Position numbers and translations under genes: made by a program
Shown: piece by piece, positions 2,629 to 27,229 of the stretch
How positions within the stretch are numbered: position 1 is the first letter of the stretch
How the letters are laid out: the number at the start of each line of letters is the position of its first letter
Notes under the pieces: generated by a model
Database searches by the model: none
Told to the model about the DNA's origin: nothing
Seen by the model: the letters and a program-made list of their open reading frames with translations, nothing else
From: a virus
DNA length: 33,960 nt
Reading direction: 5' to 3' (one strand)
IMG/VR virus record: IMGVR_UViG_3300036800_000076
Span: 1 to 33,960 of that record

Positions 2629-3486
2629 ATGACCGAGACCACGTTCCGCCGCAAGTACGGCAGCGGCCACAGCTACACCCTCGACGGCCAGGCACGCGTC
2701 AAGGGCGTCACCACGATGATGAAGGGACTCGGCGGGCCGCCCGAGTCCTACTTCACCAAGACGACCGCGGGCTACGCCGTCGACAACTGGGACCGCCTGG
2801 CCGCGCTCAAGCCGTCCGAGCGCATCGAGGAGATCGCCGGGGCGACCAGGAGCCGGTTCGACTCCGCCGCCGTGCGCGGCACCGCGGTGCACAAGCTCGC
2901 CGAGCCGCTCGCCCACGGCGAGAAGGTCGACATGCCCGACCACCTGCGAGGCCACGTCGAAGCCTGCATCCAGTTCCTCGACGACTACCAGGTTGAGGTG
3001 ATCGCCACCGAGACGGCGCTGTTCAGCCGCCGCCACAAGTACGCCGGGTCGGGCGACATGTTCATCTGGGTCACCCTGCCGAGCGGCAAGCGGATCAGGG
3101 TGCTCGGCGACTGGAAGACCAACGCCAAGGGCCCGTGGGGGTCGGTCGCCTTCCAGCTGGCGGGCTACCGCTACGCCGACTTCATGCTCGACGGCGACGC
3201 CGGCAAGACCTCGAGAGAAGTCCCGGTGCCTGAGGTCGACGACTGCTGGGCGGTCTGGCTCCGGGGTGACGGCTACGACGTTCACCCGATGCACACCTCG
3301 CCTGAGGTGCACCGCGAGCTGCTGTACATCGACCAGTGCCGCATGGCCGACGAGGCCTGCCGCAACTACAAGCTCGACGCCCTGCCGCACCCGGAGACGG
3401 TGCGCAAGGTGCGCCTTCAGGACATCGACCGCCCGGTCGGCACTCCTGGCGGCGAGCCCGGCGACGAGCCGGAATGGACGATCTGA
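2629..3486 (+). CDS. Cas4/RecB-like PD-(D/E)XK exonuclease
   Basis: 285 residues. The pattern of the RecB/Cas4-type PD-(D/E)XK nuclease superfamily is visible in order: RGTAVH with His88, GSGDMF with Asp143, GDWKT with Asp161-x-Lys163, and QLAGYRYA (Gln176-x3-Tyr180, the QxxxY motif). These residues bind metal and cut DNA in the family. Together with the RecT-like gene two positions downstream it forms the usual phage exonuclease/annealing pair, which resects double-strand ends to give single strands for recombination. No C-terminal iron-sulphur cysteine cluster is evident. The start ATG directly abuts the previous stop. Confidence 0.82.
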   Translation: MTETTFRRKYGSGHSYTLDGQARVKGVTTMMKGLGGPPESYFTKTTAGYAVDNWDRLAALKPSERIEEIAGATRSRFDSAAVRGTAVHKLAEPLAHGEKVDMPDHLRGHVEACIQFLDDYQVEVIATETALFSRRHKYAGSGDMFIWVTLPSGKRIRVLGDWKTNAKGPWGSVAFQLAGYRYADFMLDGDAGKTSREVPVPEVDDCWAVWLRGDGYDVHPMHTSPEVHRELLYIDQCRMADEACRNYKLDALPHPETVRKVRLQDIDRPVGTPGGEPGDEPEWTI

Positions 3487-3671
3487 TGCAGCGCTACGAC
3501 ATCACCCTGACCGGCTGCGACGACTCGCAGACCGTGACCGCCGAACTGACCTTGGACCAGCTGAAAGCCGTGCAGCACATCGGCGCCCTCACCGTGCCGG
3601 GGCACGAGAGCACCAGTTGCATGCCCGAGCTAACCGTCACCAGCCACGTGGAAGTGATCACCAGTGAGTGA
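3486..3671 (+). CDS. small hypothetical protein between exonuclease and RecT-like gene
   Basis: 61 residues from ATG 3486 (TGATG overlap with the exonuclease stop). An in-frame ATG at 3474 would add four residues and cannot be excluded. The sequence is mostly beta-prone (YDITLTGCDDSQTVTAELTL) and acidic. It overlaps the start of the RecT-like gene by 8 bases, so it is co-translated with the recombination module. No function is known. Confidence 0.65.
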   Translation: MQRYDITLTGCDDSQTVTAELTLDQLKAVQHIGALTVPGHESTSCMPELTVTSHVEVITSE

Positions 3672-4785
3672 AGTAGCAATCTGGCAGGCCGGCGAGGTCG
3701 CCCTGCCGGGCCAGGTAACCGGCCAGGTCCCCAACGGTCAGCTCGACGACTGGATCATGGTCGCCGACAAGGTCGTCCGCCTGGCCGAGGTGATCTGCCG
3801 CAGCCCGTTCGTGCCCGACGGCCTGCGCGGCAGCGTCCCGGCGACCGCCGCCGCGATCCTCACCGGCAGGGAGCTCGGCATCCCGCCGATGACCAGCCTG
3901 GCCAACATCCACGTCATCCACGGCAAGCCCGGCTTGTCCGCCCTGGTGATGCGCGCCCTGGTGCTCAGCCAGGGCCACGAGTGGATGGACGTGGACGTGT
4001 CCAACACCCGCGTCGTCCTCAAGGGCAGGCGCAAGGGCGAGGCCGAGTGGACCGAGGCCAGCTTCAGCACCGCCGACGCGCAGATAGCCAAGCTGCAGCT
4101 CGGCGGCTACCCGCAGGACAAGCTCTATGCCCGGGCCACGGCGCGGCTGGCCCGCCGCAAGTTCGCCGACGTGATCGCGGGCATGCCGTACTCGATCGAG
4201 GAGCTTGAGGACGGCGTCACCGAGGACGAGGCCGCCCCGGCGGACAGCACGCCGAAGCCTGCCGCACCCGCGGCCCGCACCGCGCAGCGCAGGCCGCGCA
4301 CCCCGAACTCCCCGCCCGCGGCAGCGGTTCCCCCGCCCGCCGCCGCGCCGTCCAACCCCACGGCGCAGGCAGCCGCGGGCGGGGACCTTCCTCCTCTCCC
4401 CGGTGAGGAGGAGCCACGCGGGTCGACGGGAACAGAAGCCCTGGAGTCGATCGAGAAGGACATCGCCAGGGACGCCTCCGCCCCCGACACCACCGACTAC
4501 GACACGCCGGGCACCGTCACCACGCCGCAGATCACCGCGATCTGGACCGTGCTGTCTCAGATCTTCCACTTCACCAAGGAGGAGAAGGAGCAGGCGCGGA
4601 TGGTGTGCGCGTACGTCGCGGAGCACGACCTGGGGTCGACCAAGGACCTGAGCAAGAACGAGGCGAAGTCCATCCTCGACACGCTGTCGCACTGGCAGCA
4701 CCAGGCGGCCGAGCGGGGCGAGGACCCGCGCGCGTACATGCTCGCGCTGATGGTGGCGCAGGACACGGAGGTGCCCGGTGAGTAA
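3664..4785 (+). CDS. recT: RecT-like single-strand annealing protein
   Basis: 373 residues from GTG 3664. Residues about 30-185 carry the features of actinophage RecT-type recombinases: AAAILTGRELGIPPM, IHVIHGKPGLSALVM, a VVLKGRR strand, and a basic helix with KLYARATARLARRKFADVIA. A Pro/Ala-rich linker (about 190-250) leads to a charged C-terminal helical part. Proteins of this family anneal complementary single strands in phage recombination and work with a 5'-3' exonuclease, which here is the Cas4/RecB-like gene just upstream. The long C-terminal extension is not part of the RecT core and may be a partner-binding tail. Confidence 0.75.
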   Translation: MSEVAIWQAGEVALPGQVTGQVPNGQLDDWIMVADKVVRLAEVICRSPFVPDGLRGSVPATAAAILTGRELGIPPMTSLANIHVIHGKPGLSALVMRALVLSQGHEWMDVDVSNTRVVLKGRRKGEAEWTEASFSTADAQIAKLQLGGYPQDKLYARATARLARRKFADVIAGMPYSIEELEDGVTEDEAAPADSTPKPAAPAARTAQRRPRTPNSPPAAAVPPPAAAPSNPTAQAAAGGDLPPLPGEEEPRGSTGTEALESIEKDIARDASAPDTTDYDTPGTVTTPQITAIWTVLSQIFHFTKEEKEQARMVCAYVAEHDLGSTKDLSKNEAKSILDTLSHWQHQAAERGEDPRAYMLALMVAQDTEVPGE

Positions 4786-14691: not shown

Positions 14692-15059
14692 CCTACACCG
14701 ACGAGGAGGTCGCCCGCGTCGTCCACGAGGCGAACCGGGCGCTGCAGGACATCGACGGCGACGAGAGCCCGTCGCCCCCGTGGGCGTCCGAGGACCCCGC
14801 CGTCCGCGCTCTCACCGTCCACGGCGTCGCCCTCGCCCGCAGCGGCCTGCCCGCCGGGGCGCTGCACGAGGCATGGTGCGCCGGCAAGCGCGCCCAGGGC
14901 TGGACCTACGGCGCGGTCAAGAGCAGCACCGCGAAGACCCACCCGTGCCTGATTCCCTACGCGGAGCTGCCCGGGCACCAGCAGGCCAAGGACCGGGTAC
15001 TTCACGCCATCGTCACGGCGCTCACCGCGCCGGCGCGGCAGGCGGGGGACATGCGATGA
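14688..15059 (+). CDS. RyR-domain protein
   Basis: 123 residues from GTG 14688 with AGGAGG upstream, overlapping the previous gene by 4 bases. Residues about 57-113 match the bacterial/phage RyR domain: EAWCAGKRAQGWTYGAVK, then THPCLIPYAELP and KDRVLHAIV. The N-terminal part (VVHEANRALQDIDGDESPSP, then PWASEDPAV) is also typical of phage members. RyR domains are thought to bind small ligands, probably nucleotides. The overlap with the deoxyribosyltransferase-fold gene suggests the two act together. Confidence 0.82.
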   Translation: MTYTDEEVARVVHEANRALQDIDGDESPSPPWASEDPAVRALTVHGVALARSGLPAGALHEAWCAGKRAQGWTYGAVKSSTAKTHPCLIPYAELPGHQQAKDRVLHAIVTALTAPARQAGDMR

Positions 15060-15709
15060 GCCGCCCGCTGCTGTTCGACGCGTTCTGTGGCGAGGGCGGC
15101 GCGGCCATGGGTTACCACCGGGCCGGCTTCGACGTGATCGGCGTGGACATCTGGCCGCAGCCGCGCTACCCGTTCGAGTTCCACCAGGGCGACGCGCTCG
15201 AGGCGCTGGCAACCTTCGACCTCTCGCGGTTCGCGGCGATCCATGCCAGCCCGCCGTGTCACGATCACGTCCGGACGTTCGTTGCGAAGAACGGCACCGG
15301 CGCGCTGCTCGCCCGGACCCGCGACGCGCTCGAGCAGGCTGGCCTGCCGTGGGTCATCGAGAACGTGCCAGGCGCGCCGATGCGGGCCGACTACAAGCTC
15401 TGCGGGTGCATGTTCGGCCTGCCCAAGCTGACCCGCGAGCGGTGGTTCGAGACGTCCTGGCACGGCTTCGAGATGCGGCCCCCGTGCCACCATCCCGAGC
15501 CGTCCGTGACCGCCGCAGGGACCGGCATCCCGTCTCACAGCTGGTTCTACGGCAAGGTCGACGGCTACGAGTACCACCGCCTCATGCGCGAGGCGATGGG
15601 CATCGACTGGATGACCCGCGCCGGGCTCGTCCAGGCCATCCCGCCCGCCTACACCGAGTACATCGGGCGGCAGCTGCTCGAGCACCTGGCCGCACAGGAG
15701 GCACCATGA
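15056..15709 (+). CDS. DNA (cytosine-5) methyltransferase-like protein
   Basis: 217 residues from ATG 15056 (ATGA overlap). Motif I is LLFDAFCGEGGAAMGYHRAG (residues 5-24), Asp31 ends the second strand (VIGVDIW), the catalytic Pro-Cys motif is ASPPCHDH with Cys68, and ENV is present at 102-104 (WVIENVPGA). The protein is shorter than standalone Dcm enzymes (usually over 300 residues), as are many phage versions; the target-recognition region is reduced. It may protect phage DNA from host restriction. No restriction enzyme gene is next to it. Confidence 0.75.
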   Translation: MSRPLLFDAFCGEGGAAMGYHRAGFDVIGVDIWPQPRYPFEFHQGDALEALATFDLSRFAAIHASPPCHDHVRTFVAKNGTGALLARTRDALEQAGLPWVIENVPGAPMRADYKLCGCMFGLPKLTRERWFETSWHGFEMRPPCHHPEPSVTAAGTGIPSHSWFYGKVDGYEYHRLMREAMGIDWMTRAGLVQAIPPAYTEYIGRQLLEHLAAQEAP

Positions 15710-18579: not shown

Positions 18580-18671
18580 TGGCCTTCCACCTCGCCGGCG
18601 CGATTGCCGGACTGGCCGGCTGGGCTATCGGGTACGTCACGGCATGGGTGACCTTCCGGTCGAGGCGCTGA
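18579..18671 (+). CDS. 30-residue membrane peptide
   Basis: ATG 18579 (TGATG junction) to TGA 18669-18671. Almost the whole peptide is hydrophobic with a Gly-zipper look (GAIAGLAGWAIGYVTAWVTF) and ends RSRR. A single transmembrane helix with a cytoplasmic basic tail is likely. No function assigned. Confidence 0.55.
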   Translation: MAFHLAGAIAGLAGWAIGYVTAWVTFRSRR

Positions 18672-18994
18672 TGCCGACCACCCGCCGCGCCTACCAGCGG
18701 TACGCGGCCAAGGGCACGACCACCCAGCGCGGCTACGGCAGCGCGCACCAGGCCGAGCGTGAGCGCAGGCTGCGCCTCTACCGGCCCGGCGACATGTGCG
18801 CGCACTGCGGCCAGCCGATCCTCTGGTGGCCGCTGCCGGCCGCGCGCCGCATGATCGACCTGCCGCACACGCCCGACCGCAGCGGCTACCTGCCCGGCCT
18901 GGCGCACCGGTCGTGCAACCGCGCCGACGGGGCACGCACGGCCAACCGGCTGCGCGGGCTGACGCGGCAGTGGCAGCAGGCACGGCGCTGGTGA
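18671..18994 (+). CDS. HNH endonuclease of the packaging module
   Basis: 107 residues from ATG 18671 (TGATG). TTTQRGYGSAHQAERERR is the characteristic start of phage HNH packaging proteins (R-G-Y-G-x-x-H). CAHC (Cys43, Cys46), IDLPH (Asp63, His66) and AHRSCN (His79, Cys82, Asn83) complete the HNH motif with a structural zinc. HNH proteins lying beside terminase genes are known to take part in DNA cleavage at packaging in cos phages. The small terminase gene follows after one small gene and an intergenic gap. Confidence 0.8.
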   Translation: MPTTRRAYQRYAAKGTTTQRGYGSAHQAERERRLRLYRPGDMCAHCGQPILWWPLPAARRMIDLPHTPDRSGYLPGLAHRSCNRADGARTANRLRGLTRQWQQARRW

Positions 18995-19209
18995 GCGGCA
19001 CACTGGCAGGCGCGCGCCAGTGGTGGCTGTGCCCGAACGAGCCGCGATGCCCGCACGCTGCGCTGTTCCACGACGTCTACGACGACGAGGACGAGGTGCC
19101 GCGCTGCTGCGCTGACGGCTGCCAGTGCGGTGCGGCCGCGCAGGCAGCGGACGACAGGCCAGACCGGCAGTCACCGGCAGTGACCACGGTCAGCCGCGAC
19201 CGGCCCTGA
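18991..19209 (+). CDS. small zinc-binding actinophage protein
   Basis: 72 residues from GTG 18991 (GTGA overlap with HNH). WWLCPNEPRCPHAALFHDVY, then DEVPRCCADGCQCG, a set of six Cys and two His that recurs in actinophages next to packaging genes. A metal-stabilised small domain is likely; role unknown. The last 20 residues are polar. Confidence 0.7.
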   Translation: MSGTLAGARQWWLCPNEPRCPHAALFHDVYDDEDEVPRCCADGCQCGAAAQAADDRPDRQSPAVTTVSRDRP

Positions 19210-19365
19210 CCGCCCGCCTGATGATCAGTGACCACCCGCTGAGCCACCATCCAGGATGGTAAAACCACAGGTCAGCGAATCGCGATGGACAAACCGGACA
19301 TACTGCCGACGCCGCAGCCATACGCCTACATGACGAGTCATCGTGTTACGTAACGGAGGGTGATT
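19210..19365. other. intergenic region before terminase with palindromes (possible packaging site or promoter)
   Basis: 156 bases without a gene, less GC-rich than the flanks. It holds ACCATCC/GGATGGT (19246-19260), the palindrome ATGACGAGTCAT (19330-19341) and the perfect palindrome GTTACGTAAC (19345-19354), then the GGAGGG site of TerS. A clear -35/-10 pair is not visible. The position, between HNH and TerS, is where cos or pac sites are usually found. Confidence 0.4.
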
Positions 19366-19704
19366 TTGGCTGATCCCCCGGCCCTCCGGATGCGCAGGTC
19401 GCGCATGCACAAGGCGGGCGATCACTCGCTCTGCCGTCGTTGCGCCGCGCTCCGGGACGGCACCGAACGGCCGCGACTGCTCACGCCGGTGCCCCCGCTG
19501 CCCGCTCCCGCGCCGGAGCCGGAGTTCGACGCGGCGGCGGAGCTGCGCGCGCTGGCCGCCCGGATGGCGGAGGCGCACCGCGCTGACCCGTCGAACGCGA
19601 TCCTGGGCGCGGAGCTGCGCAAGACGCTGCTCGAGCTGATGCCGAAGAACGCGGGGAAGCCCGATGCTGACCTCACGGGACTGTTCAGCGCCCTGCAGGC
19701 CTAG
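19366..19704 (+). CDS. putative terminase small subunit
   Basis: 112 residues from TTG 19366; GGAGGG ends 5 bases upstream, which rules out GTG 19360. RMRRSRMHKAGDHSLCRRCA suggests a basic DNA-binding start with a His/Cys set. After a Pro-rich linker, a helical segment has AAELRALAARMAEAHRADP and LGAELRKTLLELMP, similar to the C-terminal half of actinophage small terminases. The call rests mainly on its place directly before, and 41 bases overlapping, the TerL ATPase gene. TerS would recognise phage DNA and regulate TerL. Confidence 0.6.
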   Translation: MADPPALRMRRSRMHKAGDHSLCRRCAALRDGTERPRLLTPVPPLPAPAPEPEFDAAAELRALAARMAEAHRADPSNAILGAELRKTLLELMPKNAGKPDADLTGLFSALQA

Positions 19705-20602
19705 GTTCGCGACCCCGGCGACGCCGGGCCGGGCGAACCTGACTGAGGGCATCGCGCTGACGGCGGTGCTGCTGAACTTCCGCACCTCGGCGGGCCCGGG
19801 CCTGATGCCGTGGCAGCACGAGGTGAACGCGGTGGCGACGGAGCTGAAGCCGGACGGCCGGTTCGCTTACCGGCAGGTGGTGCTGGAGGTGATGCGGCAG
19901 CAGGGCAAGAGCGTTGACCTGCTGTCGATGATGATCGCGCGGGGCCTGCGGCGGCCGGGCACGCAGATCGCGTACACCGCGCAGACGAGGCTGGACGCGC
20001 GGCACAGGCTGCTGGACGTGTGGTGGCCGCGGATTCAGGCGAGCAAGCTTGCGCCGCTGATCGGCGTCCGCAAGGGCTCGGGCAGCGAGGCGCTGGTGTT
20101 CGCGAACGGGTCGCTGCTGGGCCTCGTGAGCAACACGCAGACCTCGGGTCACGGCGACAACCTGGACCTGGGCGTGATCGACGAGGCGTGGGCGCAGCAG
20201 GACGACCACCTTGAGCAGGCGATGCGCCCGGCGATGATGACGCGGGACGCCCAGTTGTGGGTGGTGTCCGCGGCGGGCACGGAGAAGTCCTCGTACTTCA
20301 AGGGCAAGGTCACCGACGGCCGGGCGCGCGCTGAGATGGGCGTGACCTCGGACGGGTGCTATATCGGCTACTCGTTCGCCGACGACGAGGACCCGGCGGA
20401 CCCGGTGACGTGGCGGCGGCGGATGCCGGCGCTGGGCATCACGGTGAGCGAGGAGACGGTGGCGACGGATCTCGGGCTAATGGATTTGAGCGAGTTTCGC
20501 CGCGCGTACGGTTGCCAATGGCCGGAAGTCGCCAAGCCTGGCTGGGGTGTCATCGGCGAGGACGCGTGGGGCGCGTCGGCGGCTCAGGGCGGCCTGTTGT
20601 GA
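19664..20602 (+). CDS. terL: terminase large subunit, ATPase part
   Basis: 312 residues from ATG 19664, overlapping TerS by 41 bases. LMPWQHEV is the usual TerL adenine-binding region. EVMRQQGKSVDLL is the Walker A variant (Arg78 to Ser83, Lys82), and LGVIDEAW the Walker B with Asp173-Glu174. TSGHGDNLDL precedes it as in other actinophage terminases. The product stops at the point (VIGEDAWGASAAQGGLL) where full-length TerL proteins of about 500 residues continue into the nuclease domain. That domain is encoded separately at 20784-21290. This part would power DNA translocation into the head. Confidence 0.85.
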   Translation: MLTSRDCSAPCRPRFATPATPGRANLTEGIALTAVLLNFRTSAGPGLMPWQHEVNAVATELKPDGRFAYRQVVLEVMRQQGKSVDLLSMMIARGLRRPGTQIAYTAQTRLDARHRLLDVWWPRIQASKLAPLIGVRKGSGSEALVFANGSLLGLVSNTQTSGHGDNLDLGVIDEAWAQQDDHLEQAMRPAMMTRDAQLWVVSAAGTEKSSYFKGKVTDGRARAEMGVTSDGCYIGYSFADDEDPADPVTWRRRMPALGITVSEETVATDLGLMDLSEFRRAYGCQWPEVAKPGWGVIGEDAWGASAAQGGLL

Positions 20603-20787
20603 GCGAGTGGCTGGGCATCCGCGCGGAGGCGTGGTGGAAGCTGGAGAAGCTTTCCGGGCGGCTATGGGACCGGGTGTGCAGGGACGGCGTTAGCTGCTGG
20701 CTGGACTGGCTGCCGTCGTTTGCGTACCGGCACCGCAAGGAAGCCGAGCGGGCGCACTACCTGCGGAAGTACGGCGTCCCGCTGTGA
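20599..20787 (+). CDS. small tryptophan-rich protein inserted between TerL halves
   Basis: 62 residues from GTG 20599 (GTGA overlap) to 20787 (GTGA overlap with the nuclease gene). Rich in Trp and basic residues: GIRAEAWWKLEKLSGRLWDR, then CWLDWLPSFAYRHRKEAERA. No family is recognised. It lies exactly between the ATPase and nuclease parts of the terminase, and might be a linker protein that bridges the two, or an unrelated insert. Confidence 0.6.
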   Translation: MSEWLGIRAEAWWKLEKLSGRLWDRVCRDGVSCWLDWLPSFAYRHRKEAERAHYLRKYGVPL

Positions 20788-21290
20788 GCGGCGAGGTCGC
20801 GGCCGGCGTGGCGATCAGCGAGGACCGGAAGGTCGCGTCGGTGGTCGCGGCGGGCCGCAGCACGTCGGGGAAGGTGCTGGTCGACCTGTCGCCGTACTAC
20901 GGTCACCCGCGCGGCGTGGTGGCGGCCCTGGCGGAGCTGTACGCGAAGCATGACCCGGTGGCGGTGGTGGTGAACGCGAAGGCGCAGTCGGGGACGCTGG
21001 TGGAGCCGCTGAAGAGCGCGGGGATCATCGCGGTGCTGCCGTCGGCGGAGGACGTCGCGGTCGCGCACGGCCAGTTCCTGGACCTGGTGAACGACGGTGG
21101 CCTGGAGCATCTAGACCAGCCGCCGCTTACCGCGGCGGTGCGGTCGGCTCAGCAGCGGGACCTGGCGGGCGCGCAGGCGTGGGACCCGAAGGTGGCCGTC
21201 GACCAGGGGCCGCTGGTGGCGGCGACACTGGCGGTCTGGGCGTTCCTGCGCTGGGAAGAGCTGGCCACGCCGGGCGTCTGGCAGATCTGA
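20784..21290 (+). CDS. terminase large subunit, RNase H-like nuclease part
   Basis: 168 residues from GTG 20784. The order of elements is that of the TerL C-terminal nuclease: a first strand with SEDR (GVAISEDRKVASVVAAG), VAVVVNAKAQSGTLVEPLKS as the central strand and helix, and LDQPPLTAAVRSAQQRDL followed by VAVDQGPLVAATLAVWAF at the end. Compared with most TerL nucleases (V-D-x-S-x-D-R and V-V-D-x), Ala10 and Asn64 stand where two catalytic aspartates are usually found; Asp140 is kept. Activity is therefore uncertain. Normally fused to the ATPase, here a separate gene. Confidence 0.75.
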   Translation: MSGEVAAGVAISEDRKVASVVAAGRSTSGKVLVDLSPYYGHPRGVVAALAELYAKHDPVAVVVNAKAQSGTLVEPLKSAGIIAVLPSAEDVAVAHGQFLDLVNDGGLEHLDQPPLTAAVRSAQQRDLAGAQAWDPKVAVDQGPLVAATLAVWAFLRWEELATPGVWQI

Positions 21291-21349
21291 GGGCCGGCCC
21301 GTACGGATTGCAAGTCCCGCGTGCACCTTCAGGTCCAGGCCGGCCCGTA
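21291..21349 (+). repeat. 9-bp inverted repeat with 12-bp direct repeat after terminase
   Basis: GGGCCGGCC (21291-21299) can pair with GGCCGGCCC (21338-21346), enclosing 38 bases. Because the arms are themselves near-palindromic, GGCCGGCCCGTA also occurs as a direct repeat (21292-21303 and 21338-21349). It starts one base after the nuclease stop and ends before a strong AGAGGAGA site. It may be a terminator or an mRNA processing structure. Confidence 0.5.
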
Positions 21350-21370
21350 ACTCAGTTTAGAGGAGATGAC

Positions 21371-21589
21371 ATGCGCCTGTCCGTGGTCCTCCTGCTGCTC
21401 TCCCTGGCCGGGGTGCTGGGCGGCGGCGCGCTGATCGGCCTGCCGGCGCTGGGCGGCTGCCTGATCTTCGACAGCCTCGCGGCGGCCGTGTACGCGCTGC
21501 TGCGCGAGTACGGGGACCGGGCGCGCCCGTCGGTGCACGAGGTCCCGACGGTGGCGAGCATCCTTGAGCGGGCCCGGGGCGCGGCGTGA
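21371..21589 (+). CDS. small membrane protein before portal
   Basis: 72 residues from ATG 21371 with AGAGGAGA 7 bases ahead. Two hydrophobic segments: RLSVVLLLLSLAGVLGGGAL, then GGCLIFDSLAAAVYALL; the end is soluble (VPTVASILERARG). A first helix with this composition could also act as a signal anchor. Function unknown. Confidence 0.65.
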   Translation: MRLSVVLLLLSLAGVLGGGALIGLPALGGCLIFDSLAAAVYALLREYGDRARPSVHEVPTVASILERARGAA

Positions 21590-21831
21590 GCGAGGACGCG
21601 GAGTACGGCCTGATCCTGGCCTTCGACACTGACGAGCCCGAGTTCACGCGCGGATTCGAGGCTGGTCAGCTCTGGGAGCGGCTGGAACGCGACGGCTACG
21701 CCGGACAGCTGATCCACGCTGAGAACGCCGAGATGGTCATGCGCATGGCTGAGAGCAAGGACCTCGTATTCACGGCCAAGGATGTCGGCGACGGCTGGAT
21801 GCAGGTCGCTGTTGGGCGTGAGCCTGAGTGA
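21586..21831 (+). CDS. conserved small phage/actinobacterial protein
   Basis: 81 residues from GTG 21586 (GTGA overlap). YGLILAFDTDEPEFTRGFEA, then GQLWERLERDGY, and NAEMVMRMAES match a small conserved protein with the signature L-A-F-D-T-D-x-x-x-F-x-x-G-F-x-x-G-x-L-W. It is soluble and alpha/beta. The function of the family is unknown to me. Its stop overlaps the portal start. Confidence 0.72.
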   Translation: MSEDAEYGLILAFDTDEPEFTRGFEAGQLWERLERDGYAGQLIHAENAEMVMRMAESKDLVFTAKDVGDGWMQVAVGREPE

Positions 21832-23255
21832 GGCTGCTTGACCGGCTGATCCGGCGGGACGCGGGCTACTGGGAGGGGCAGGCCAGCGGCGCGGCGGTCC
21901 TGACCAGCAGCTACGGCAGCCCGGACCGGGAGGCGGTGCTGCCGCAGCTCGCGGGCTGGGCACAGCAGGTCAACGGGTCGGACTCCCCGGTGTTCTCCGC
22001 GATCCTGGTGCGGATGATGCTGCTGGCCGAGGCGCAGTTCCAGTTCCAGGCCAAGGACGACAAGCACCTGTACGGGAACCAGTCGCTGAAGGCGCTCGAG
22101 CACCCGTTCGGCCCCGGGTCGACCAGCGGTGAGCTCATCGCCCGGATGGAACAGGACGGCTCGATAGCGGGCAACGCCTACATCTGGAGCACCCCGGACG
22201 CCGACGCGCCGCTGGTGCGGCTGCGGCCGGACTGGGTCACGATCGTCTCCGAGCTCGTCCCGGTCGACGGCGGCGGCAGCTACCGGCGGAAGGTCGGCTA
22301 CTGGCACCAGCCGCCGCAGGGAACCGCTGGCCACGGCGCGCCGTTCATGGCGCCGGCGGCCGAGGTCGCCCACTGGCACCCGATCCCCGACCCGGCCGCG
22401 GACTTCCGGGGCATGAGCTGGCTCACCCCGGTGATGCGGGACATCCAGGGCGACGACGCGATGACCAGGTACAAGGTCAGGTATCTCCAGAACAACGCAA
22501 CGCCCAACATTGTCATCAAGTACGCCCAGAAGCTGCAGCCCGCCACGCTGGACAGCATCCGGGACCGGATGACGGCCCGGTACGGCGGCCCGGACAACGC
22601 GGGCAAGACCCTGGTCCTGGACCAGGGCGCCGACCTGACGCTGGCCGGGAACAGCCTGTCGCAGATGGACTTCAGCAACGTCTCCGTCGAGGGCGTGCAG
22701 CGGATCCTCGCGCCGTCCGGCGTGCCGGGGCTGCTGATCGGCCTGGAGAGCATCAAGGGCGCGGGCAAGTCGTACGAGGAGGTCATCCGCCGGTTCGCGG
22801 ACCTGACGCTGCGGCCGCTGTGGCGGTCGATGTGCGCGGCGCTCGAGGAGCTCGTCCCGGACGTGCCGGCCGGGTCGCAGCTGTGGTACGACACCGGGGC
22901 GATCGCGGCGCTGCAGGAGGGCGAGCAGGTCCGGGCGCAGGTCTCCCTGATCCGGGCGCAGGCGCTGCTGGCGCTGCGGCAGGCGGGCTACGACCAGATG
23001 TCGGCGGTCGCGGCGGTCGGCGCCGGGGACATGTCGCAGCTGAAGGTGTCGGATGCCCCGGCGCCGCCGCCGGCCGGGAACGTGCAGCACCTGCTGCCGC
23101 AGACGCCGCCGGGGATAACGGCCGCCCCGCTGCCGCCGTCGACGCCGCGGCTGCCGACCGGGTCGGTGTCGCCGGGTGACGGCGGGAACGGGACGCGGCC
23201 GGTGCCGGTGGCGTCTGCGGCGCGGCGGGCGCTGAACGGAGCCGATCATGGCTAA
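21828..23255 (+). CDS. HK97-type portal protein
   Basis: 475 residues from GTG 21828. The course of the chain is that of SPP1/HK97-like portals in actinophages: RLLDRLIRRDAGYW start, SDSPVFSAILVRMMLLAEAQ, AGNAYIWSTPD, a WHPIPDPAADFRGMSWLTPV block, QNNATPNIVIKY, a LAGNSLSQMDF strand, then GVPGLLIGLESIKG and SYEEVIRRFADLTLRPLW. The portal forms the dodecameric ring at one head vertex through which DNA enters and leaves. The C-terminal 70 residues are Pro-rich and variable. The gene follows terminase and precedes protease, as expected. Confidence 0.88.
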   Translation: MRLLDRLIRRDAGYWEGQASGAAVLTSSYGSPDREAVLPQLAGWAQQVNGSDSPVFSAILVRMMLLAEAQFQFQAKDDKHLYGNQSLKALEHPFGPGSTSGELIARMEQDGSIAGNAYIWSTPDADAPLVRLRPDWVTIVSELVPVDGGGSYRRKVGYWHQPPQGTAGHGAPFMAPAAEVAHWHPIPDPAADFRGMSWLTPVMRDIQGDDAMTRYKVRYLQNNATPNIVIKYAQKLQPATLDSIRDRMTARYGGPDNAGKTLVLDQGADLTLAGNSLSQMDFSNVSVEGVQRILAPSGVPGLLIGLESIKGAGKSYEEVIRRFADLTLRPLWRSMCAALEELVPDVPAGSQLWYDTGAIAALQEGEQVRAQVSLIRAQALLALRQAGYDQMSAVAAVGAGDMSQLKVSDAPAPPPAGNVQHLLPQTPPGITAAPLPPSTPRLPTGSVSPGDGGNGTRPVPVASAARRALNGADHG

Positions 23256-23266
23256 ACATGCCTGGG

Positions 23267-23920
23267 TCACTGAAACGGGCGACGCTCCAGGTAGTCACTG
23301 AACCGGCTGGCCAGAACTGGCCGGGCTTCGACGCGGCCGAGGATCAGGTTGCAGACCGCGCACAGCATCCCCCGGATGCACTTCTTGCACGCCCGCTTCG
23401 GACCGCAGCACGAGTGATCATGGTCGATCGCTAGGCGGATAGTGCCGTTCTGCCCACAGAGGGCACAGCGACCCTGCTGACTCTCGCGCAGCCACTCCCA
23501 CTCGGCGGCGGTGATGCCATACAGGGCCTTGATCGTGCGCCAGCGACTGCAGTCGAGACAGTTCGACGTCTTGCCCCGCGAGCGCCGGGGATCGACGCTG
23601 AATTTGCTCCAGGGTTTCCATTCACCGCAGGTGAGGCAGATTCGCCCGGTGTCCGACTCCTGTGAGCGCCAGCGCCGTCCGGCAATAACCGCCTCTCGCC
23701 CCGCGCGGTTGATCTGATTCCACGGGGTGCAACTCAGACAGGTCGTTTTGCCTTGGAGAAGGTTGCTCAGCCACTTCACGACGACGGTGCCGCATCCCGT
23801 GCATCTGCACTCAAAGCGCCGGTTGTAACCAGACCGCTCGACCTCGCGGATCACTACCAGAGTGGCGAAGGTAGTACCCGGTGGGACTGCCCTTGGCGGC
23901 TGTCCGCGTCCTTTCGGCAT
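23267..23920 (-). CDS. endonuclease VII-type HNH homing endonuclease (minus strand)
   Basis: 217 residues on the minus strand. The N-terminal 65 residues carry a zinc-knuckle domain (FECRCTGCG, then TTCLSC) often joined to phage homing nucleases. Two CxxC pairs follow (CLTC, CLDC). Residues 134-200 are the nuclease: YGITAAEWEWLRESQQGRC, CALC (Cys152, Cys155), AIDHDH (Asp166 to His169), RGMLCAVCN (Cys187, Cys190, Asn191). This is the recombination endonuclease VII/HNH layout. It stands alone and antisense between portal and protease genes, typical of a free-standing homing endonuclease. Upstream on its strand GTTAATAT could act as its own -10. Confidence 0.82.
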   Translation of the reverse strand: MPKGRGQPPRAVPPGTTFATLVVIREVERSGYNRRFECRCTGCGTVVVKWLSNLLQGKTTCLSCTPWNQINRAGREAVIAGRRWRSQESDTGRICLTCGEWKPWSKFSVDPRRSRGKTSNCLDCSRWRTIKALYGITAAEWEWLRESQQGRCALCGQNGTIRLAIDHDHSCCGPKRACKKCIRGMLCAVCNLILGRVEARPVLASRFSDYLERRPFQ

Positions 23921-26545: not shown

Positions 26546-26602
26546 CCCCGGCGGATGGGTCAGCATCCCCGGGGCATGGCCGGGCACTCGCGGAGGAGTG
26601 CC
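26546..26602 (+). promoter_or_regulatory. two hairpins in the leader of the HNH gene, one hiding its ribosome-binding site
   Basis: Hairpin 1: 26546-26551 with 26569-26574 and, after one bulged base, 26553-26557 with 26564-26568; 11 pairs, 6-base loop. Hairpin 2: GGCACTC (26583-26589) with GAGTGCC (26596-26602), loop GCGGAG. The GGAGGAG site (26592-26598) lies in the loop and right arm of hairpin 2. The AT-rich stretch at 26490-26517 just upstream may hold a promoter, but its boxes are poor. Confidence 0.6.
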
Positions 26603-26605
26603 GAC

Positions 26606-27229
26606 ATGGCAGATCGTACGTGCTCAGTGGAAGGCTGCACTACCAAGGTCCAGGCCCGCGGGATGTGCGGCAGGCACTACCAGCATGACCGGGCTGTCCG
26701 CAACGGTGCCAAGCAGTGCCGTCGGGCGGGTTGTACCCGGCTGGCGATCCTGGACGGCCTCTGCCGCCCGCATTACATGAAGCGCCGCCGTCTCGACACG
26801 GAAAAGGAACTCCGCGACGGGCGACAGTGCAGCGTGGACGGCTGCAACCGGCCGTACGACACCAATGGCCTCTGCCACCTCCACTACCAGCGCCAGCGGA
26901 AAACAGGCGAGACCGGCCCGGTCGCCCTACTCCGCGCCGTCAACGGCACCGGCTACACAACCAAGGCCGGCTACCGCATCCTCTGGCGCGATGGCCAGCG
27001 CGTCTCCGAGCACACGGTGATCATGGAAGAAGTCCTCGGCCGCCGCCTGGTGACACCAGAGAACGTGCACCATAAGAACGGCATCAAGCACGATAACGAC
27101 CCGGGCAACCTGGAGCTGTGGCTGAAGATGCAGCCGTCGGGCCAGCGGGTCGAAGACCTGATGAAGTACATCGCCGAGTACCACGCGGACGCTATGCGGC
27201 GCCTGCTGGACAGCAGAAGGGCAGGCTGA
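26606..27229 (+). CDS. HNH homing endonuclease with three zinc-knuckle repeats
   Basis: 207 residues from ATG 26606 (GGAGGAG 7 bases upstream). Three tandem C-x4-C-x9-C-x2-H repeats begin at Cys6, Cys38 and Cys75, a likely DNA-recognition array. Residues 130-172 are an HNH_3-type nuclease: RVSEHTVIMEEVLGRRL (His136) and ENVHHKNGIKHDNDPGNLEL (His155, His156, Asn158). It lies between the capsid gene and the next structural gene and has its own leader with hairpins, typical of a free-standing phage homing endonuclease. The knuckle repeat is nearly the same as the whole protein at 10836-10934. Confidence 0.83.
   Translation: MADRTCSVEGCTTKVQARGMCGRHYQHDRAVRNGAKQCRRAGCTRLAILDGLCRPHYMKRRRLDTEKELRDGRQCSVDGCNRPYDTNGLCHLHYQRQRKTGETGPVALLRAVNGTGYTTKAGYRILWRDGQRVSEHTVIMEEVLGRRLVTPENVHHKNGIKHDNDPGNLELWLKMQPSGQRVEDLMKYIAEYHADAMRRLLDSRRAG

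Follow-up and report, generated by a model that had tools for sequence, protein, structure and literature searches.

A phage-type terminase large subunit encoded as separate ATPase and nuclease genes in soil viruses, with likely exchange of the nuclease gene between ATPase lineages

The large terminase is usually regarded as one inseparable motor protein and serves as a common phage marker gene. Here, we describe a group of uncultured soil viruses in which this motor is apparently made as two proteins and in which the nuclease gene seems to have been re-paired repeatedly with unrelated ATPases, in most cases after the loss of residues required for DNA cutting. The arrangement is described for a GC-rich IMG/VR virus record of 33,960 bases, the whole of which was analysed and is called the window in the following, and for its relatives. 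We propose that the first chain is the packaging ATPase, extended at its C-terminus by a tail that forms the first structural element of the nuclease domain, and that the second chain is the remaining RNase H-fold nuclease domain. As indicated by the gene structure, the two chains would be produced from overlapping or adjacent genes; they would then assemble in trans, with the tail docking on the second chain. Comparison of the loci indicates that tail and stand-alone nuclease were recombined as a unit under at least four ATPase lineages, and a docking tail would allow such recombination. The nuclease of the window lineage has lost two of the three canonical metal-binding acids while being kept under purifying selection; it is probably a structural subunit that binds DNA or the portal, and an HNH protein encoded upstream would cut the genome ends. 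For this scheme as a whole, including a passenger gene at the junction, we estimate a probability of about 0.7. The features on which it is based are listed in Table 1.

Table 1. Genes and sites of the packaging module in the window
Feature	Position	Strand	Basis or remark
HNH endonuclease gene, packaging-module type	18644..18994	+	phrog_1808, E 3.7e-13
Probable small terminase subunit, 114 aa	19360..19704	+	position only; directly precedes and overlaps the ATPase gene
TerL ATPase subunit, 312 aa	19664..20602	+	phrog_9, E 6.7e-33; start conserved in relatives
ATPase C-terminal tail WGVIGEDAWGASAAQGGLL, residues 294-312, proposed docking element	20543..20599	+	common to split ATPases
Trp-rich gene, 62 aa, insert at the split junction, apparent passenger	20599..20787	+	distribution in relatives
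Stand-alone TerL nuclease subunit, 168 aa, RNase H fold	20784..21290	+	phrog_9, E 2.3e-9
Ala10 codon, at the position of HK97 catalytic Asp302	20811..20813	+	Glu or Asp in many relatives
Asn64 codon, second catalytic position (HK97 Asp388)	20973..20975	+	Asp in many relatives
Asp140 codon, third acidic position, kept	21201..21203	+	two positions off HK97 Asp471 in the sequence alignment
Small membrane-protein-like gene between nuclease and portal genes	21371..21589	+	
Portal protein	21828..23255	+	PF04860, E 3.2e-31

The ATPase open reading frame covers positions 94-471 of the terminase family phrog_9 and the nuclease open reading frame positions 481-668, so that the two together represent one terminase large subunit. 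The translated ATPase contains both a Walker A (RQQGKS) and a Walker B motif (VIDEAW), and the columns corresponding to R, G and K and to DE of these motifs are invariant in an alignment of fused terminases. GTGA overlaps join the ATPase, the 62-residue and the nuclease frames, exactly as a sequence-only reading of the window had described them. For the 114-residue frame preceding the ATPase, scans with family and PHROG profiles gave no significant family match.

To see how general the split is, IMG/VR was scanned twice, once with each half, which yielded about 100 loci. Among the 70 distinct loci with both halves, 67 were split and three (L092, L096 and L102) were fused in one open frame. Most of the split loci have the 4-base GTGA overlap; junction inserts can reach 684 nucleotides and reading frames vary. 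More than 90 distinct split loci are now known from all scans, and an assembly or sequencing error that masks an intact fused gene is therefore excluded. The recurrence of the same junction across related loci also bears out the proposal that the split is maintained and not accidental.

A split that is only apparent would result if programmed frameshifting or splicing restored a fused terminase, and in the common layout with the GTGA overlap the nuclease does lie in the -1 frame directly after the ATPase. Against this, at least ten loci have inserts, stop codons and differing frames at the junction, and genes inserted there mean that the nuclease is translated separately. In the window, the sequence preceding the ATPase stop shows no slippery heptamer of the type X-XXY-YYZ, and an Rfam search of positions 19000-22000 found no intron, only a sub-threshold microRNA match. 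The junction in relatives is in addition usually free of inserts. No intron or intein is thus involved, in agreement with the initial reading. Restoration of a fused protein is thus hardly credible, and a terminase working as two chains is very likely.

Two-gene terminases as such are already known. Arthrobacter cluster AY phages such as BillyTP (PP978841) have consecutive ATPase and nuclease genes (PMC11920828), and as in the window these are two overlapping genes in the same order between the small terminase and portal genes. In the window, however, the 62-residue gene is interposed, whereas most of its relatives show the direct overlap. Neither half of the cluster AY terminase has detectable similarity to the window (BLASTP E 0.40 and 9.5), the BillyTP nuclease appears to keep acidic motifs (GFDGS, YCDPQD), and no partner exchange is reported for cluster AY (PMC11920828). 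The open-access literature yielded cluster AY as the only description of a split terminase, and no description of a stand-alone nuclease clade with repeated change of the ATPase partner and mostly lost acids. The expectation that split terminases are uncommon has to be qualified, as they are common in the present soil clade and have been reported for cluster AY. Terminases homologous in both domains (phrog_9) are found in the actinobacteriophages Keelan, Fryberger and Yeezy (Gordonia), MooMoo (Mycobacterium), RRH1 and Mbo4 (Rhodococcus) and Maggie (Arthrobacter); these differ from the window in being fused in a single gene, and in the matches listed their identity to the window nuclease does not exceed 38%.

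In several loci, a nuclease about 70% identical to that of the window is adjacent to an ATPase that is just about 25% identical to the window ATPase. Scans with two such foreign ATPases and one fused relative defined four ATPase lineages, A to D, with 60 split and 3 fused distinct loci for lineage A, to which the window belongs, 9 and 21 for lineage B, 25 and 44 for lineage C, and 1 and 11 for lineage D; the sampled loci include near-duplicates from related samples. Each of the four lineages thus also occurs fused to a nuclease of its own. For the most similar pairs of split and fused ATPases, identity is 89% in lineage B, 86% in A and 68% in C, yet their nucleases share only 35-40%. The identity of the DNA falls off where the ATPase body ends in lineage B, and immediately past the tail in the pair from lineage A.

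In a tree of 169 IMG/VR nucleases, which was a quick build from a sample shaped by the search queries, all 93 stand-alone nucleases lie on one side of a single branch (SH-aLRT 100) and the 76 fused ones lie apart. A second tree, smaller and built with more care after masking of the two catalytic columns, likewise groups the 65 split rows as a clade (100/98). Across the stand-alone nucleases of the larger tree, the type of ATPase partner changes at least 13 times, compared with 28-33 changes for shuffled labels. These trees support a single origin of the split on the nuclease side. Independent fission is known from cluster AY, and the genes might have been separated repeatedly at a domain boundary suited to it, with no exchange of a unit. 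Such repeated fission would have to account for one clade of 93 stand-alone nucleases next to ATPases of four lineages that also occur fused, and for breakpoints at the ATPase end, and we consider it most improbable. Exchange of the tail together with the nuclease between at least four ATPase lineages is likely the better description of these loci.

Split ATPases of all four lineages end alike, with W-VIG-D-W followed by about ten residues. The tail segment has the pattern GW-VI-EDAW and corresponds to the last 19 ATPase residues in the window. While the ATPase bodies of the foreign lineages are only 23-42% identical to those of the window type, their tails reach 46-75% identity to the best window-type tail, and split tails are closer to the split tails of lineage A (0.46-0.51) than to the linkers in fused members of their own lineage (0.29-0.34). 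When a model of the fused relative L092 (pLDDT 88.5) is compared with solved structures, the match to ATPase domains extends to residues 288-296, and that to isolated nuclease domains begins at residues 292-296, at the first W of the tail segment. These alignments place the gene boundary about 17-19 residues inside the nuclease fold, with the first nuclease element on the ATPase chain; the earlier statement that the ATPase ends exactly where the nuclease domain starts has to be corrected in this respect. In HK97, the linker strand stacks on a hairpin of the nuclease (PMC9410871). Judging from the fold alignment and the co-inheritance of the two parts, it is plausible, and the option we lean towards, that the tail docks the ATPase and nuclease chains onto each other. 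The shared tails could instead reflect hitch-hiking, with recombination breakpoints upstream of the tail, and not a functional need.

The 62-residue gene shows the features of a coding sequence, with a GC content of 0.63, 0.51 and 0.90 at the three codon positions and a dN/dS of 0.17 between the window and its homologue in L002, indicating purifying selection. It had been suggested that this Trp-rich protein bridges ATPase and nuclease as a third subunit, and the 4-base overlaps at either end as well as the purifying selection in the window/L002 pair would be compatible with such a role. A search for the three-gene order in relatives does not favour it: among the loci tested, only the window and contig 3300036790_000208 (L002/L053) have the gene at the junction, and all other split loci do without it there, most of them with a direct overlap of ATPase and nuclease genes. 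The junctions of other relatives carry unrelated genes. In L068, a homologue is found away from the junction, directly upstream of the portal gene and preceded by an open reading frame similar to the small membrane-protein-like gene of the window. Partial homologues are encoded in a non-packaging region near a helix-turn-helix-like frame (L119:2940-3200 and L120:3800-4168), and phage records gave zero matches to the protein. A bridging function is consequently very unlikely. The gene is real, but its distribution in relatives shows it to be a later arrival, a passenger at a junction tolerant of insertions.

The AlphaFold2 model of the window nuclease (pLDDT 86.9) has HK97 TerL (6z6d) as its best structural match (Z 14.1, rmsd 2.9, 149 aligned residues), followed by other terminase nucleases. 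By sequence, a profile of the fused relatives finds HK97 TerL with E 1.8e-27, and searches of PDB sequences with the nuclease alignment alone or with a single fused protein returned no relative. The window terminase thus has the fold and family of HK97 TerL, and an HNH gene is located near the terminase in both; HK97 TerL, however, is one chain with the catalytic acids D302, D388 and D471 (PMC9410871), whereas the window has two chains with A10, N64 and D140 at these positions, two of the three canonical acids being gone. A10 aligns with the Asp of the HK97 motif AGLDLS, which we read as Asp302, and N64 follows the fourth strand of the sheet in the model, as expected for the second catalytic position. 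The split nucleases examined comprise 48 of the A10/N64 type and 36 of the E10/D64 type, with linked differences at positions 66, 69, 134 and 135, and the independent pairs are too few to separate linkage of positions 10 and 64 from shared ancestry. Partners of lineage C ATPases have E/D/D in 24 of 25 cases. The dN/dS of the nuclease is 0.19 between the window and L002, showing that the A10/N64 type is under purifying selection.

An A10/N64 nuclease might still be active, using other residues or a site shared with the partner chain. D140 and D100 are conserved, cultured phages have equally incomplete triads, and the linked substitutions at positions 66, 69, 134 and 135 could mean that the site is remodelled and not dead. 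On the other hand, the side chains that have taken the place of two of the three canonical carboxylates are poor metal ligands or no ligands at all, and the A10/N64 group gained no clearly compensating acid, the sole acid shift being at position 108 (Glu in 36 of 48). We regard retained activity as somewhat unlikely. The triads of cultured fused terminases are A,A,D in MooMoo, D,N,- in Mbo4 and Yeezy and A,D,S in RRH1, so that the loss is independent of the split and part of a broader tendency of the family, in which the canonical triad may be no guide to activity.

In the window, the HNH gene adjoins the terminase genes, as is characteristic of HNH-assisted cos packaging, and the HNH protein gp74 of HK97 promotes cos cleavage (PMC9410871). 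An HNH homologue is present in 20 of 26 related contigs; in 37 of the 38 split loci with enough upstream sequence, it precedes the ATPase by no more than 3 kb. No correlation was seen between HNH presence and catalytic loss, since loci with intact acids and the majority of fused loci have HNH genes as well. From this gene neighbourhood and by analogy with HK97, the upstream HNH protein is a plausible cutter of genome ends. A catalytically dead nuclease combined with cutting by HNH is a tentative reading, held at a little under even odds. The full combination, in which a swappable dead nuclease subunit docks on unrelated ATPases by tail complementation and has a structural role while HNH cuts, is possible and marginally more doubtful. 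A precedent for an inactive nuclease is the packaging ATPase of phi29, which retains a vestigial nuclease domain (PMC7672431). As in the window, an RNase H-fold domain without catalytic residues is kept in the motor; the phi29 domain, however, is fused, reduced and tied to the packaging of unit-length genomes, whereas that of the window is separate, full-size and encoded near an HNH gene.

If terminase activities reside on separate proteins whose genes reassort, trees of the "terminase" can mix two histories, and annotation based on one domain may miss the other half. The natural split also offers a ready system for studying ATPase-to-nuclease signalling, a difficult subject as long as both parts share one chain. 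Since catalytic acids are often missing, both here and in cultured actinobacteriophages, it can be tested directly whether DNA in these phages is cut by the HNH partner and not by the terminase.

Some further observations were made at these loci. In two relatives, a gene lies exactly between the terminase ATPase and nuclease genes, a DNA methyltransferase gene (231 aa; L051:1092-1787) in one and an endonuclease VII gene (L089:1994-2578) in the other. At least one canonical acid is missing in six cultured fused terminases (L110 and L112-L116; RRH1, Maggie, Mbo4, Yeezy, PFR1 and MooMoo), and in fused lineage B loci (L222-L244) the three catalytic positions are highly variable and the ATPases well conserved. 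The window itself has an Endonuclease VII-type gene (23267-23920, minus strand; PF02945, E 2.4e-17) between the portal and capsid genes, which resembles a free-standing homing-type endonuclease, and a second HNH-family gene (26555-27229, plus strand; phrog_20891, E 2.1e-21) immediately 3' of the major capsid gene. Its early region (2629-4785 and 14780-15709) contains exonuclease and RecT-like annealing genes and a DNA methyltransferase gene, and primase/helicase and replication initiation frames are also present. The single hint at a host in the genome collection is contig L248, from an Actinomycetota MAG.
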